Source of the DNA: Williamsia sp. 1135
GTDB taxonomy: Bacteria > Actinomycetota > Actinomycetes > Mycobacteriales > Mycobacteriaceae
Assembly (NCBI RefSeq): GCF_002095395.1
Contig: NZ_MJEI01000060.1
Span: 1-37,587, forward strand
Reading direction: 5' to 3'
DNA: 37,587 bases
Part shown: positions 8,540-37,587 of the stretch, piece by piece
Layout: each line of letters begins with the position of its first letter
How positions within the stretch are numbered: position 1 is the first letter of the stretch
Made by a program: the position numbers and the translations under genes
The notes under the pieces: model-generated
Databases searched by the model: none
What the model was told of the DNA's origin: nothing
The model's input: only the letters and a program-made list of their open reading frames with translations

Positions 8540-9397
8540 TCATGATGGTGTTCCTGTCCTGCGTAGTTCGAGAGTGCAACATTTGACTCCGCCGCCGCCC
8601 TTGAGGAGTTCGGACAGGTCGACCTCGATGACGGAGAACCCGGCCCCGGCGATGGCGGCGGCCAACTGCGGTGCCGCGTCGGTCATCACGACATGGTGGC
8701 CGTCGGATACGAGGTTGAGTCCGAGCACGGCGGCATCGGAATCGGACGCGATGACGGCATCGGGATAGAGCGTGGCCAAGGTGTCCTGAGCAGCTGCCGA
8801 GAATGCGGCAGGGTGGTAGGCGATGGTCTGGTCGTCGAGGACTGCGATCACGGTGTCGAGGTGGTAGTAGCGCGGATCGACGAGTTCGAGGCTCACGACC
8901 GGCATCCCGGTGAGCCGCTGAACCTGTTCGTGCGCACCGTGGTCGGTGCGGAAACCGGTGCCGGCCAGGATTCTGTCACCGACGACGAGAAAGTCGCCCT
9001 CACCCTCGTTGATGCCGTCGAGGTGATGGACCGGGCCGACCCCGGCACCCGCCAGCCACGCCGCGTACACGGGACCCTCCGCCCGGCGTTCGTCATGCCG
9101 GAACCGGGCGGCGATCGCGACGCCACCGGCGACGAGGCCGCCGTTGGCGGCGTAGACCATGTCGGGGAGGCCGGGCTGTGCAGGCACGAGGTCAACGGTG
9201 TGCCCGAGGTCGAGATAAGTGCGCCGGAGACTGTTCCACTGCGCGACCGCCAACGAGGTGTCGACCGGGATCGCCGGATCCATCCACGGGTTGATGCAGT
9301 AGCTGACCTCGAAGTGTGTCGGGATGGTCATGGCATAAGCGCGCGGTCGGGAGATTCGTTCGCGCGAATGGAGGGGAGCGAGGTCGGTGATGGTCAC
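8540..9397 (-). CDS. Dimethylargininase / arginine-dihydrolase-like amidinohydrolase
   Basis: A member of the guanidino-group-modifying (pentein) superfamily, about 285 residues. The motif PGLPDMVYAANGG (about 76-88) lies where DDAH and arginine deiminase carry an acidic residue. The catalytic His lies in PRYYHLDTVIAVLDD, and the C-terminal nucleophile in GGGGVKCCTLEL (Cys273 or 274). It is usually annotated as dimethylargininase. Coupling to rocD suggests the product may be ornithine directly from arginine, or citrulline from methylarginines. The start is uncertain: GTG 9397 has -10-like TACGAT 6 nt upstream. ATG 9421 and ATG 9331 are alternatives. Mycobacterium tuberculosis has the same ddaH-like/rocD/AsnC arrangement. 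Confidence 0.82.
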   Translation of the reverse strand: MTITDLAPLHSRERISRPRAYAMTIPTHFEVSYCINPWMDPAIPVDTSLAVAQWNSLRRTYLDLGHTVDLVPAQPGLPDMVYAANGGLVAGGVAIAARFRHDERRAEGPVYAAWLAGAGVGPVHHLDGINEGEGDFLVVGDRILAGTGFRTDHGAHEQVQRLTGMPVVSLELVDPRYYHLDTVIAVLDDQTIAYHPAAFSAAAQDTLATLYPDAVIASDSDAAVLGLNLVSDGHHVVMTDAAPQLAAAIAGAGFSVIEVDLSELLKGGGGVKCCTLELRRTGTPS

Positions 9398-9403
9398 AGG
9401 TTG

Positions 9404-9409
9404 ATCGTA
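9404..9409 (-). promoter_or_regulatory. -10-like hexamer before ddaH-like gene
   Basis: TACGAT on the minus strand ends 6 nt before the GTG at 9397, suggesting a leaderless transcript for the ddaH-rocD pair. The 9410-9530 interval up to the divergent Lrp/AsnC gene should contain that regulator's sites; I could not define one with confidence. Confidence 0.4.
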
Positions 9410-9530
9410 TGAAGGGCCCATAGCGCAATCAATCGTCGGACATTGCGTCTACACCCGGTATCTGTTGTGTCTTCTGGCAGAATAGTGGAATCCGTTGCGT
9501 GGCGCGGATGAAACACTCAGGAGGGTGGTC

Positions 9531-9977
9531 ATGGCGGCGCTCGACGAACTCGACGAGGCAATTCTGGCGTGCCTGACGCGCGACGCGCGGCAGACGTACG
9601 CGCAGATAGGCGAGCAGGTCCGGCTGTCGGCGCCTGCCGTGAAACGACGCGTCGACCGCCTCGTCTCTTCAGGCGTCATCCGAGGCTTCACTGTCGTGAC
9701 GGATCCGGCGGCGCTCAAGTGGACGACGGAGGCGTATGTGCAGGTCTTCTGCCGGGGGACCATCGCTCCGGACATCCTCGCGCGCTCCTGGGAACACATC
9801 ACCGAAGTCGTCAGTGCAGCGACGGTCACCGGCCAGGCCGACGCCATCCTGCGGGTGGTGGCGCGGGATGTGCAACACCTCGAGGCGGCGCTCGAGCGCA
9901 TTCGGGCCGCCGAGACCGTCGACCACTCTGAGAGCATCATCGTGCTCTCCCGGGTCATCGACCGGGGCCAGCCGTGA
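9531..9977 (+). CDS. Lrp/AsnC family transcriptional regulator
   Basis: A 148-residue regulator. The N-terminal winged helix-turn-helix (about 3-52, LDELDEAILACLTRDARQTY and LSAPAVKRRVDRLVSSGVI) is followed by a RAM ligand-binding domain (about 66-140, with VTGQADAILRVVARD). The GQAD turn is the position where many family members bind an amino acid at the dimer interface. The ATG at 9531 is preceded by AGGAGGG (9519-9525), an excellent ribosome-binding site; an upstream ATG at 9495 has none. It is divergent from the ddaH-rocD pair, so it most likely senses arginine or ornithine and controls that operon. That is inference from arrangement. Confidence 0.92.
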   Translation: MAALDELDEAILACLTRDARQTYAQIGEQVRLSAPAVKRRVDRLVSSGVIRGFTVVTDPAALKWTTEAYVQVFCRGTIAPDILARSWEHITEVVSAATVTGQADAILRVVARDVQHLEAALERIRAAETVDHSESIIVLSRVIDRGQP

Positions 9978-10033
9978 GGGCTCCGACGTGCGGGACAACG
10001 CGAGGGGGAATTCCGGTTGCGGCGCGGTCGTGC

Positions 10034-10039
10034 TAGATT
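10034..10039 (+). promoter_or_regulatory. -10 element of the aroG leader transcript
   Basis: TAGATT ends 7 nt before the GTG at 10047. This predicts transcription starting at or beside that GTG, so the leader peptide would be translated from a leaderless mRNA. A weak -35-like TTCCGG lies 17 nt upstream. Confidence 0.55.
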
Positions 10040-10046
10040 AGCCGAC

Positions 10047-10121
10047 GTGAACAACCGCGCACGTGCCTATTGGCGCTTTATCGAGGCTCCGGGTGGAGCC
10101 GCCGATACAGCGCTACGCTGA
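10047..10121 (+). CDS. Putative aroG leader peptide (24 aa, contains YWRF)
   Basis: A short frame, GTG to TGA, encoding VNNRARAYWRFIEAPGGAAD followed by TALR. All three aromatic residues lie together: Tyr8, Trp9 and Phe11 (codons at 10068-10079). It sits directly upstream of a DAHP synthase gene and is followed by an intrinsic terminator. This is the layout of a ribosome-mediated attenuation leader. A comparable leader (aroR) has been described before the DAHP synthase gene of Corynebacterium glutamicum. Stalling at these codons when aromatic amino acids or their charged tRNAs are scarce would favour read-through into aroG. Translation is not proven; it rests on codon content, promoter position and context. 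Confidence 0.7.
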   Translation: MNNRARAYWRFIEAPGGAADTALR

Positions 10122-10179
10122 CGCGCAATAACACCCGGAGCCCCGAGCAGTGACCGATAGCGGTCGCTGCTTTTTCTTT
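10085..10179 (+). terminator. Attenuator structures before aroG: alternative hairpins and intrinsic terminator
   Basis: The terminator stem is AGCAGTGACCG (10146-10156), loop ATAG, CGGTCGCTGCT (10161-10171): 11 pairs with one G-U. A TTTTTCTTT run ends at 10179. Upstream, GGCTCCGGGTG (10085-10095) has two exclusive partners. It can fold locally with GGAGCC (10095-10100) or pair perfectly over 11 bp with CACCCGGAGCC (10132-10142), just 5' of the terminator. The first segment lies right after the Tyr-Trp-Arg-Phe codons. I do not see a strong antiterminator that directly invades the terminator arm, so the exact switching scheme is open. Confidence 0.7.
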
Positions 10180-10236
10180 GTCAGGGCGCCCGGACGACCG
10201 TGTTGAGGTGCCCGCCGAATCAGGAAGGCACACAAC

Positions 10237-11301
10237 ATGAGCAACGAACAGGGAATCCTGTCCGGACCCCAGACCTCCGACCGTCGTATCCGGTCGTTCC
10301 GCGAGATCCCGTCGCCCGACACCGTGCGTTCGGAACTGCCGCTGACCGCCCGTCGCGCTGAGGTGGTTCAGCGTGACCGCGACGAGATCGCCGCCATCCT
10401 CGCCGGCCGCGACGACCGGTTGCTGGTCATCGTGGGGCCGTGCTCCGTTCACGATCCGATCGCCGCCCTCGATTACGCCCGTCGCCTCGCGCCGATCGCC
10501 ACCGAGCACGCTGATCGTCTGAAGATCGTGATGCGGGTCTACTTCGAGAAGCCGCGCACCACGGTCGGTTGGAAGGGTCTGATCAACGACCCTGGCATGG
10601 ATGGCAGCTTCGACGTCGAACGTGGCCTGCGCGTGGCTCGTTCGCTGCTGCTCGACATCATCGACCTCGGGCTGCCCGTCGGTTGTGAGTTCCTCGAACC
10701 CACGAGCCCGCAGTACATCGCCGATGCAGTGGCGTGGGGCGCAATCGGCGCCCGCACCACCGAATCCCAGGTGCATCGGCAGCTCGCCTCGGGTCTGTCG
10801 ATGCCCATCGGCTTCAAGAACGGCACCGACGGAAACATCCAGGTCGCCACCGACGGTGTGAAAGCTGCAGCGGCTGAACACGTCTTCTTCGGTGTCGACG
10901 ATTTCGGCCGGGGTGCGATCGTCGAGACCGCGGGCAACACCGACTGCCACATCATCTTGCGTGGTGGCACAGGCGGCCCGAACTTCGACGCCGCATCGAT
11001 CGAGGGTGCCCTCGCCTCGCTCGCCAAGGCGGGTCTTCCCGAACTGTTGATGATCGATTGCTCTCACGCCAACTCTGGCAAAGACCATGTCCGGCAGGCC
11101 GGGGTCGCCACGGAGATCGCCGCTATGATCGCCGACGGTCAGCAGGGGATCAGCGGTGTCATGCTCGAGAGCTTCCTTGTCGCCGGTGCCCAGTCGACCG
11201 AGGCCACTCCGCTCACCTACGGCCAGTCGGTCACCGACAAGTGCATGGATTGGGATGCCACCCTCGACGTGATCGGAGCCCTCTCGGCAGCCAAGCGCTG
11301 A
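10237..11301 (+). CDS. Class I 3-deoxy-7-phosphoheptulonate (DAHP) synthase
   Basis: A 354-residue DAHP synthase of the E. coli AroF/G/H type. It condenses PEP and erythrose 4-phosphate in the first step of the shikimate pathway. Signatures are LLVIVGPCSVHDP (about 67-79), MRVYFEKPRTTVGWKGLINDP, IGARTTESQVHR, GFKNGTDG, ILRGG and DCSHANSGKDH, which include the PEP- and metal-binding residues. This is not the class II enzyme known as AroG in M. tuberculosis. The ATG has AGGAAGG 8 nt upstream. Expression is probably controlled by the leader peptide and terminator at 10047-10179. Feedback specificity (Phe, Tyr or Trp) cannot be read from the sequence here. Confidence 0.95.
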   Translation: MSNEQGILSGPQTSDRRIRSFREIPSPDTVRSELPLTARRAEVVQRDRDEIAAILAGRDDRLLVIVGPCSVHDPIAALDYARRLAPIATEHADRLKIVMRVYFEKPRTTVGWKGLINDPGMDGSFDVERGLRVARSLLLDIIDLGLPVGCEFLEPTSPQYIADAVAWGAIGARTTESQVHRQLASGLSMPIGFKNGTDGNIQVATDGVKAAAAEHVFFGVDDFGRGAIVETAGNTDCHIILRGGTGGPNFDAASIEGALASLAKAGLPELLMIDCSHANSGKDHVRQAGVATEIAAMIADGQQGISGVMLESFLVAGAQSTEATPLTYGQSVTDKCMDWDATLDVIGALSAAKR

Positions 11302-16674: not shown

Positions 16675-17538
16675 GTGAATGATCTGACCCAGGACGAGTT
16701 GCTCTACGCCTTGGAAAAGGCGATCCCGGAAATCATGGAAGACCACTACGCGGCAGCGTCGCCGTGGAATCCGCATGATTGGGTGCCGTGGACCGAAGGA
16801 CGCAACTTCGCATTCCTGGGCGGCGAGGACTTCGATCCCGACCAGCCACGGCCGCTGCCGGAGGACGTGACGTCGGCCTTGCTCGCGCTGCTGCTGACCA
16901 AGGACAACATGCCGTCCTATCACCGGCTGATGGCGCAGAAAGCCTCTATCTTCGGTGCCTGGCAGGAAGTCATCGGCTCCTGGACAGCCGAAGACAACCG
17001 GCACGCCATCGCGCTGCGCGACTACCTGGTGGTCTCGCGGCTCATGGATCCTGAGGCCGCCGAGACTCTGCGTCTGCATCACATGACCAAGGGCAAGCTC
17101 CAGACCCCGCGTTCGCTCACCGACTACCAGATCCTGGACGTCCTGGCGTTGCTGGCGGTTCACGAACTGCAGTGCGTCGCCTTCGAGGAAAAGCTCATCG
17201 CCGAGTCCGACAGTGAGGTGCTCGAAGGCATCGTCAGCAGGATCCTGCACGACGACCGCGTGCAGGCGAAGACATTCACCGCCTTCATCAACGCCGGGAT
17301 CGACGCCAACATCACCGAAGCCCTCAAGTCGGTCGTCAAGGCAGTGGCCGAACTGGAACTGATTGGTGCCGACGTCGACAACTTCGGTGAACTGGACGCG
17401 ATCGCCAAGTTCAACGCCGACGCCACGGGGTTCGTCGCGCGCTCGTTGGTAGCGGACCTCAAACTCCAGAGCCTCGACGGTCTCGACGAGGCAAGCGAAG
17501 CTGCGCGCCGGCGAGTGCTGTCGGCCGCAGGCCTGTAG
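16675..17538 (+). CDS. DesA2-like acyl-ACP desaturase homologue with altered di-iron ligands
   Basis: A 287-residue all-helical protein of the soluble ferritin-like acyl-ACP desaturase family. NFAFLGGEDFDPDQP (about 44-58), LLTKDNMPSYHRL, WTAEDNRHAIALRDYLVVSR (about 103-122) and IGADVDNF align with mycobacterial DesA2, which occupies this position after glyA. Ligand positions are altered: the first ExxH reads DNRH (Asp107, His110), and the second, normally ExRH, reads DRVQ (Asp194, Gln197); Glu164 is kept. A complete di-iron centre is therefore doubtful, and it may have lost desaturase activity. The GTG at 16675 is 40 nt after glyA with a -10-like TACGCT 6 nt before it. Confidence 0.85.
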   Translation: MNDLTQDELLYALEKAIPEIMEDHYAAASPWNPHDWVPWTEGRNFAFLGGEDFDPDQPRPLPEDVTSALLALLLTKDNMPSYHRLMAQKASIFGAWQEVIGSWTAEDNRHAIALRDYLVVSRLMDPEAAETLRLHHMTKGKLQTPRSLTDYQILDVLALLAVHELQCVAFEEKLIAESDSEVLEGIVSRILHDDRVQAKTFTAFINAGIDANITEALKSVVKAVAELELIGADVDNFGELDAIAKFNADATGFVARSLVADLKLQSLDGLDEASEAARRRVLSAAGL

Positions 17539-36787: not shown

Positions 36788-37587
36788 TTGTCAACCTGTC
36801 TAAGACAGGGCTGGTTCTTTTCGTGGTTTGGCCGGTTTGATGTTGATGCCGGCGATTGTGGGTGGTGCTTGTCGTTGTGGTGGCTTCCTGAACCTTTCGG
36901 GGTGCTTGTTGTAGTTGTCGAGGCGGTGTTGGTGTCGTTGGTCGGCGACATCGTCTGCGGTGCCGGTGTGCACTTGCTCGGGGGTGTAGTGGTTGAGCCC
37001 GCTGTGGCGGTGCTCGGTGGCGTAGTTGTGCAGGAACTGTGCGGTCCAGGCGCGGGCGTGCTCGATGCTGTCGAACTTCTCAGGGCAGGACAGGTCGTAT
37101 TTGATGGTCTTGAACAACGATTCGGAGAACGGGTTGTCGTTGCTGACCCGGGGCGGCGAACGTGAGTTGATCACCCCTCGTTTTTTGAGGGCCGTGATCA
37201 GCTTGTGCGAACGCATGACCGCCCCGTTGTCGGAGTGCAGCACCGTCGGCGGACCGTGCTCGGTGATAGCGGTGGTGAACATGTCAATCGCGTCGGGTTT
37301 GTTCTCGGTGTATTCGATGCGCCAGCACACCGGGTAGCGAGAGAACACATCGATCGCGAGGTAGAGCTTGTAGCGGTCGTCGTTGGTCGGGCCGTGCAGG
37401 TCGGTGATGTCCCACGACCACAGCTGACCTGGTCCGGTGGCATGAATGACCGGTCTGGAGCGCGTGTTGGTACCTGGGCTGCTGTGATGGCCGCGGCGGC
37501 GGTCGCCGACAAGTCCGTGGCGTTCGGCGATTCGGTAGACCGTGCGCGGTGAACAACCGATCTCCTGATTGTCGAGTCCACGCCAAT
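36788..37587 (-). mobile_element. IS3-family insertion sequence, truncated by the window edge
   Basis: The region downstream of ispH holds the 3' part of an IS3-type transposase gene. A possible terminal inverted repeat begins near TTGTCAACCTGTCTAAGACA (36788-36807), just after the transposase stop. The other end is beyond the window, so the repeat and any target duplication cannot be confirmed. Confidence 0.65.
36800..37587 (-). CDS. IS3-family transposase OrfB, 5' end beyond window
   Basis: The minus-strand frame is open from the right edge (WRGLDNQEIGCSPRTVYRIA) to a TAG at 36800, about 262 codons. The helix-turn-helix-like beginning is followed by the rve/DDE integrase core. The catalytic acids are in QLWSWDITDLHG (first Asp), VLHSDNGAVM (second Asp) and NDNPFSESLFKTIKYD (Glu), so the active site looks intact. 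The C-terminal LNHYTPEQVHTGTADDVADQR is typical of actinobacterial IS3 OrfB proteins. The upstream OrfA and start lie outside the window. No frameshift is seen in the visible part. Confidence 0.9.
   Translation of the reverse strand, partial: WRGLDNQEIGCSPRTVYRIAERHGLVGDRRRGHHSSPGTNTRSRPVIHATGPGQLWSWDITDLHGPTNDDRYKLYLAIDVFSRYPVCWRIEYTENKPDAIDMFTTAITEHGPPTVLHSDNGAVMRSHKLITALKKRGVINSRSPPRVSNDNPFSESLFKTIKYDLSCPEKFDSIEHARAWTAQFLHNYATEHRHSGLNHYTPEQVHTGTADDVADQRHQHRLDNYNKHPERFRKPPQRQAPPTIAGINIKPAKPRKEPALS

Follow-up and report, generated by a model that had tools for sequence, protein, structure and literature searches.

The class I DAHP synthase gene aroG of Williamsia sp. 1135 (genome of 5.98 Mb in 107 contigs) is preceded by a short open reading frame (ORF) with clustered aromatic codons, the arrangement of an aroR-type leader. 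The type case is aroR of Corynebacterium glutamicum, described as a leader attenuator of aroF (Neshat et al. 2014, via PMC11802643, PMC4046766 and PMC7356990). The features of the Williamsia locus are given below; "the window" denotes the whole stretch of 37,587 nt that was analysed, and all coordinates are positions within it.

10034..10039, + strand: -10 promoter element TAGATT, 7 nt upstream of the leader start codon, read from the sequence
10047..10121, + strand: leader ORF of 24 codons, MNNRARAYWRFIEAPGGAADTALR, from GTG (10047-10049) to TGA (10119-10121)
10068..10079, + strand: control codons Tyr8-Trp9-Arg10-Phe11 (Tyr 10068-70, Trp 10071-73, Arg 10074-76, Phe 10077-79), read from the sequence
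10071..10115, + strand: hairpin P12, predicted by folding (10071-10077/10109-10115, 10079-10083/10103-10107, 10085-10090/10095-10100)
10085..10095, + strand: strand 1, the switching strand, GGCTCCGGGTG, read from the sequence
10132..10142, + strand: strand 3, CACCCGGAGCC, which can pair with strand 1 (antiterminator helix 1:3) and with D
10145..10172, + strand: terminator hairpin T, arms 10145-10155/10162-10172, 11 bp with a G-U at the base
10171..10179, + strand: U-tract TTTTTCTTT, whose first two bases also close the terminator stem
10184..10193, + strand: element D, GGGCGCCCGG, complementary to CCGG (10135-10138) plus GCCC (10140-10143), with an internal loop
10222..10228, + strand: Shine-Dalgarno sequence AGGAAGG of aroG, read from the sequence
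10237..11301, + strand: class I DAHP synthase gene aroG (PF00793 DAHP_synth_1, E 2.6e-87)

The nearest named relative of the DAHP synthase is that of Williamsia soli (98% identity; Gordonia, 83%), and a type II DAHP synthase is encoded elsewhere in the same genome. Just 5′ of the leader lies a gene for an Lrp/AsnC-type regulator (9525-9977, + strand), from which an arginine deiminase/DDAH-like gene (8540-9421) diverges. Farther off, Rfam RF01781 (ASdes TB sRNA) matches at 16993-17060 on the - strand with 54.6 bits, and a transposase-like ORF is seen by eye at 36800-37348 (- strand), near the contig end. No Rfam covariance model matches the leader region (9990-10260) at E values up to 5.

A preliminary description of this region listed the -10-like hexamer 7 nt before a GTG, the 24-codon leader with Tyr-Trp-Arg-Phe (YWRF), the 11-bp terminator and the T-run, all of which we find in place. 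It also gave strand 1 two pairings. Both are present, with GGAGCC (10095-10100) in a local hairpin or with strand 3 over 11 bp, but the local hairpin is larger than noted (10071-10090 with 10095-10115). This hairpin, P12, spans the region from the Trp codon to near the stop codon and includes control codons Trp9 and Phe11. One further part, element D, was missing from that inventory.

Conservation of the leader

The region is matched in all nine genomes of the genus that were searched, the window's own included, at 83-100% identity, and the leader ORF is found in all nine as well as in related aligned leaders. Of 401 family genomes, 119 contain a 25-nt core pattern, TAYTGGCGNTTNNNNNNGGCTCCGG, as do 13 of 31 genera, and the backward control pattern gives 0 matches in the 401; the core pattern is narrower than the leader family as a whole. 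DAHP synthase matches were obtained in 323 of the 401 family genomes (78 were without a match), and a class-level search matched 53 of 246 genomes. The loci compared below were picked for having the leader or the enzyme, and therefore give no estimate of leader frequency.

Leaders were identified in a set of 134 loci with a finder that tolerated a gap of 0-9 nt from strand 3 to the terminator; 124 loci passed. The loci not accepted (L022, L166-L168, L170-L172, L222, L223, L225) include several that carry a leader by eye; an earlier automatic helix search, which took wrong leaders in some loci (e.g. L016, L031, L034, L166), was dropped. Some genomes are represented twice, which makes nine of the 124 loci repeats and leaves 115 distinct leaders; four of the 26 genus labels first used probably duplicate a genus and were merged, giving 22. 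Repeats are still contained in the D energies and exchange ranks, the Shine-Dalgarno masking, the 26-label D offsets, the stall folds, the U-tract correlation, the Rhodococcus-type D-site comparison (11 loci) and an earlier D permutation run.

Ninety of the 115 distinct leaders encode YWRF, and the remainder have other clusters or too short an upstream sequence. In all 90, which are related sequences and hence not 90 independent cases, a TANNNT box lies 6-8 nt 5′ of an in-frame start codon (74 GTG, 16 ATG), at exactly 7 nt in 83. Out-of-frame starts in the same stretches have this spacing in 3 of 151 cases. (Before removal of repeated loci, the counts were 99 of 99 and 3 of 161.) The leader is thus probably translated in leaderless fashion, as was first proposed from the Williamsia sequence, and the -10 spacing points to a transcription start at or near the GTG. 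Streptomyces lividans is reported to have leaderless leader peptides, not all of which come with a clear terminator (PMC8079986).

Other aromatic clusters precede the same enzyme family at named Arthrobacter, Microbacterium, Streptomyces, Rhodococcus, Nocardia, Amycolatopsis and several proteobacterial loci, and at Micromonosporaceae-like and Corynebacterium-like loci assigned by likeness. The clusters differ between lineages but remain aromatic (YWRF, RYPYF, WYAYF, RFYF, YFWF, YFWYF). Scans for leader candidates before DAHP synthase genes gave none in some loci, e.g. L018, L026 and L028. That the aromatic residues are kept while codons and adjacent RNA change argues for a translated sensor. 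Conservation of the RNA itself is extreme, which would also be expected of a structured leader that acts without attenuation, e.g. as a stability element or protein binding site. We consider this very improbable, given that the aromatic codons persist while the surrounding RNA differs between lineages and that attenuation is the reported function of C. glutamicum aroR (PMC11802643).

The aroR residues are reported as Phe-Tyr-Phe, and the operon rises under Phe limitation (PMC11802643); the Williamsia leader has Tyr-Trp-Arg-Phe instead, a comparison in which the C. glutamicum side comes from citing papers. In both systems, the DAHP synthase gene is preceded by the coding sequence of a leader peptide in which aromatic residues cluster. 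Moreover, L219-L221, three of the five loci of genus label g3 (Corynebacterium by likeness), have Phe-Tyr-Phe leaders and share strand 1, strand 3 and the abutting terminator; L222 and L223 are the two that were not accepted. This shared layout supports the kinship with aroR suggested earlier, and the two leaders are probably orthologous.

Two other known systems are comparable at the level of published descriptions. The LEU element of actinobacterial leuA is likewise a conserved leader that may adopt an alternative or pseudoknotted structure, but serves another gene and another amino acid (PMC1262725). For aroF of Acholeplasma, uORFC-13-1 is described as a short ORF with Phe codons followed by a terminator and a DAHP synthase gene; it belongs to another phylum and has a ribosome binding site (PMC8632094). 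The 2005 survey of Actinobacteria, as far as its text was available, reports phenylalanine and tyrosine operons without conserved RNA structures (PMC1262725), and the main text of the 2010 attenuator survey makes no mention of aroG, aroF or DAHP (PMC2965389). Titles and abstract openings of the literature, a body that does not include the original aroR description, gave no report of the leader outside Corynebacterium, of its wide distribution, of the abutting layout or of D; the novelty of the distribution, layout and D is accordingly provisional.

In addition, L124 and L125 (genus label g4) contain a second match to the 25-nt pattern, at position 1501 immediately 5′ of greA, with a terminator-like hairpin and a T-run after it; this match may be chance or a borrowed leader. 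Proteobacterial loci such as L030, L055, L062 and L086 combine an aromatic leader (SYFWYFSYDSS in L030, AFYFWFSVPGG in L062) with an antiterminator that overlaps the terminator and a strong U-tract, again 5′ of a gene of this DAHP synthase family.

RNA structure and the sense of the proposed switch

Compensatory changes were scored in an alignment of 55 sequences, with 500 shuffles and slid-structure controls. With P12 plus the terminator imposed, 93.6% of cells are paired (at most 50.5% for slid versions) and seven pairs are changed on both sides; the observed covariation score was reached by none of the 500 shuffles, and a weaker measure, that of further pair types, by 32. With helix 1:3 plus the terminator, 96.3% of cells are paired (slid, at most 45.3%), eight pairs are changed on both sides, and 6 of 500 shuffles reached the further pair types seen. 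Element by element, two-sided changes number five in the terminator (of nine pairs tested), three in helix 1:3 (of 11) and two in P12. At its loop end, helix 1:3 has two pairs that are not formed in 13 and 15 of the 55 rows. Conservation of the YWRF codons and of the terminator in relatives was a test set in advance, and both are conserved. Judged from sequence, then, this is a conserved attenuator-like leader, a view founded on the sequence itself, its conservation, the compensatory changes, the spacing of its parts and the co-variation of D described below.

How the parts would be switched is less obvious. In the trp and phe attenuators of E. coli, the antiterminator takes an arm of the terminator. 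The Williamsia leader resembles these in its leader codons, its alternative hairpins, its terminator with U-tract (10145-10179) and an upstream hairpin that excludes the antiterminator, P12 and helix 1:3 having strand 1 in common. It differs in its apparently leaderless start, in the addition of D and in that the antiterminator ends 2 nt short of the terminator and shares no arm with it. The gap between strand 3 and the terminator is 0-5 nt throughout the 115 distinct leaders (0 nt in 8, 1 in 53, 2 in 29, 3 in 16, 4 in 7 and 5 in 2), and a helix 1:3 lengthened by 3 bp would reach no farther than the second nucleotide of the terminator stem. When the naked window RNA is folded to 10179, helix 1:3 and the terminator form together, each with P 1.00, and the terminator keeps P 1.00 in all five states folded to this point. 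As every fold through T contains both, base pairing cannot by itself provide a switch; a classical contest in which antiterminator and terminator exclude each other is rejected on this ground, in keeping with the early suspicion of non-classical switching. A second antiterminator, formed by the 3′ end of the leader with a terminator arm (CGCTG/CAGTG), was considered by eye and set aside as too weak at 5 bp.

In relatives, the equivalent helix does reach into the terminator, overlapping its arm by at least 4 nt in 11 of 14 loci of the Rhodococcus/Nocardia/Amycolatopsis type and, among Proteobacteria, in 29 of 34 (two of the 34 gave no result); these counts are approximate, as the groups were chosen by eye and the terminator looks wrong in L048, L218 and a few proteobacterial loci (e.g. 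L044, L059, L085, L089). Since the helix takes the terminator arm in most such relatives, antitermination is the reading that they share with the Williamsia leader. An antiterminator helix that abuts the terminator and does not overlap it is, as far as the literature covered here indicates, apparently a new feature.

Our favored reading, with a probability of about 0.6, is an aroR-type attenuator with a leaderless start, in which the ribosome controls transcription; comparison with relatives supports the ribosome-mediated attenuation first proposed. Transcription would begin at or near the leader GTG, as the -10 spacing suggests, and a ribosome would load immediately. With aromatic tRNAs charged, this ribosome may reach the stop codon and sit between strands 1 and 3, or else leave, whereupon P12 would lock strand 1; folding predicts that P12 holds strand 1 on the ribosome-free leader. 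In either case, the terminator would form and aroG would not be transcribed. With Tyr-tRNA or Trp-tRNA in short supply, the ribosome would wait at codon 8 or 9 and keep P12 open, its front edge just clearing strand 1 (by folding with an assumed footprint), so that strand 1 could pair with strand 3. The resulting helix would stop 2 nt from the terminator stem and leave the terminator arm free. We infer that a stable helix at the base of the stem hinders closing of the hairpin inside RNA polymerase. If helix abutment indeed stops a terminator, this would be a mode of antitermination that searches for shared arms would miss. Several observations count against the favored reading: helix 1:3 and T form together in the folds, a masked stop-codon ribosome still lets helix 1:3 form, the naked window fold favors helix 1:3, several genera have poor U-tracts (g4, for instance, has CCGCCATTT; that of the window is good), and the aromatic codon kept at 5 nt from strand 1 has little effect in the stall model.

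Which amino acids would be sensed depends on spacing. In the window, and in 97 of 99 leaders, the distance from the end of the codon to strand 1 is 14 nt for Tyr, 11 nt for Trp and 5 nt for Phe, and the Phe spacing of 5 nt is kept in 88 of the 90 distinct YWRF leaders. We modeled stalls in 16 genus labels with an assumed footprint whose front edge lies 12 nt 3′ of the first A-site base. A Tyr or Trp stall gives a probability of helix 1:3, P(1:3), of 1.00 in all 16 labels. A Phe stall gives 0.00-0.06, a value that is partly built in because the single scored base pair lies under the mask; ribosome-free label means range from 0.00 to 1.00. In the window, a Phe11 ribosome masks the 5′ half of strand 1, and a 5-bp helix remnant (10091-10095/10132-10136) still forms. 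In a further set of 18 loci, the last aromatic codon always leaves a 5-nt spacer to strand 1 (L197 belongs both to this set and to the 90 YWRF leaders), and the three-pair average of P(1:3) at a Phe11-type stall is 0.32-0.33 at a footprint of 11 and 0.00 at 13-14. Codons at 11-17 nt (23 nt in one case) free strand 1 at all footprints from 11 to 14 in these loci, and those at 8 nt give 0.32-1.00.

The geometry thus predicts that a stall at Tyr8 or Trp9 frees strand 1 and that one at Phe11 covers its first half; a wait at Phe11 would allow little read-through. The idea that one leader senses Tyr, Trp and Phe jointly holds in this model for Tyr and Trp (P 1.00), and is doubtful for all three because the Phe11 ribosome leaves only the 5-bp remnant. 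Fixed control-codon spacing would, if this is correct, predict which amino acid is sensed. In Corynebacterium-like leaders, Phe, Tyr and Phe lie 11, 8 and 5 nt from strand 1, which fits the reported induction of C. glutamicum aroF by Phe limitation and not by Tyr limitation (PMC11802643).

The Corynebacterium-like spacing also fits a switch of the opposite sense. Helix 1:3 may stack on the terminator and strengthen it, in which case a ribosome at the last aromatic codon would cover strand 1 and weaken termination, and the codon 5 nt before strand 1 would be the sensor. This would give a use to the fixed 5-nt position, where a Phe11 stall covers the start of strand 1, and would accord with the narrow range of the gap between strand 3 and T. 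It would also accord with folds in which a masked stop-codon ribosome still yields helix 1:3 (label means 0.24-1.00), a result that we set aside because the model ignores the body of the ribosome. Under reverse polarity, however, the first aromatic codons at 11-17 nt would have no use, and most Rhodococcus-type and proteobacterial helices take the terminator arm and can be antiterminators only. We think that this alternative is unlikely and retain the antitermination reading.

Co-variation of element D with strand 3

Just past the terminator, strand 3 has a second partner. Pairing of strand 3 with D exceeds that of dinucleotide shuffles with z 2.29 and 2.33 at offsets of 0 and 8 nt past the terminator, and z is above 1 in 20 and 21 of 22 genus labels, respectively; at offsets of 20-80 nt, it falls from 0.35 to -0.33, and the picture with 26 labels is similar. 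The native pairing averages -19.06 kcal/mol; shuffling weakens it to -13.63, and exchanging partners between genera to -16.74. Shuffle p values are at or below 0.05 in 43 of 68 distinct strand-3 types, and 28 of the 68 rank in the best fifth against exchanged D partners; fewer types stand out in this comparison because strand 3 is alike across many genera. When one leader is drawn per label (22 genus labels), none of 20,000 permutations matches the observed co-variation of strand 3 and D in any of three draws, and the earlier run gave the same outcome. In some lineages, strands 1, 3 and D change jointly, as in L189 and L190 (GGGA/UCCC/GGGA). The window's own match is modest (shuffle p 0.05, swap rank 0.38), and L221 (g3, Corynebacterium-like) lacks a convincing D (-6.4 kcal/mol, p 0.42). 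The D site of 11 Rhodococcus-type loci fits strand 1 or the 3′ arm of T (z 2.06 and 1.98, offset 12), and not strand 3.

In either type of lineage, the site is predicted to oppose helix 1:3 once polymerase has passed, and D, lying beyond the terminator, would compete with strand 1 for strand 3 in read-through RNA. The role of the putative element can be framed as a three-partner switch across Actinobacteria, in which strand 3 pairs with leader strand 1 or with its co-varying copy D, antitermination proceeds by abutment, and read-through mRNA is controlled a second time. We offer this fuller scheme tentatively. If the leader is the attenuator proposed above, control of DAHP synthase by aromatic attenuation, so far studied in one organism, would reach across much of the Actinobacteria, and D would be a concrete candidate element at a control point of industrial aromatic amino acid production.

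It is also conceivable that the terminator is not the main output. Strand 3 might choose strand 1 under starvation and D when the cell is fed, the 3-T-D structure then acting on aroG mRNA through translation, Rho or decay. The conservation and co-variation of D fit this idea, as do the many genera with weak U-tracts and the Rhodococcus-type sites that oppose helix 1:3. If D stood in for a weak U-tract, its strength should track U-tract weakness, but the correlation is weak (rho -0.31, p 0.13, 26 labels) and such substitution is not supported; the window, moreover, has a good U-tract. Nor is access to the Shine-Dalgarno sequence changed consistently when strand 3 is masked: it goes up in 7 and down in 3 of 19 labels (mean +0.016), with loose start calls, a start codon having been assigned in 68 of 124 leaders and several starts being apparently wrong. 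We judge such an output to be improbable, and attenuation at the terminator remains our preferred reading. A translation switch acting through D, a strand E (10207-10213) and the Shine-Dalgarno sequence looks attractive by eye in several genera but drew no consistent support from the strand-3 masking; given the loose start calls, this falls short of disproof. As a separate observation, GGTGCCC at 10207-10213 can pair with D or with GGCAC (10227-10231) beside the aroG Shine-Dalgarno sequence, and similar pairs are seen by eye in several genera.
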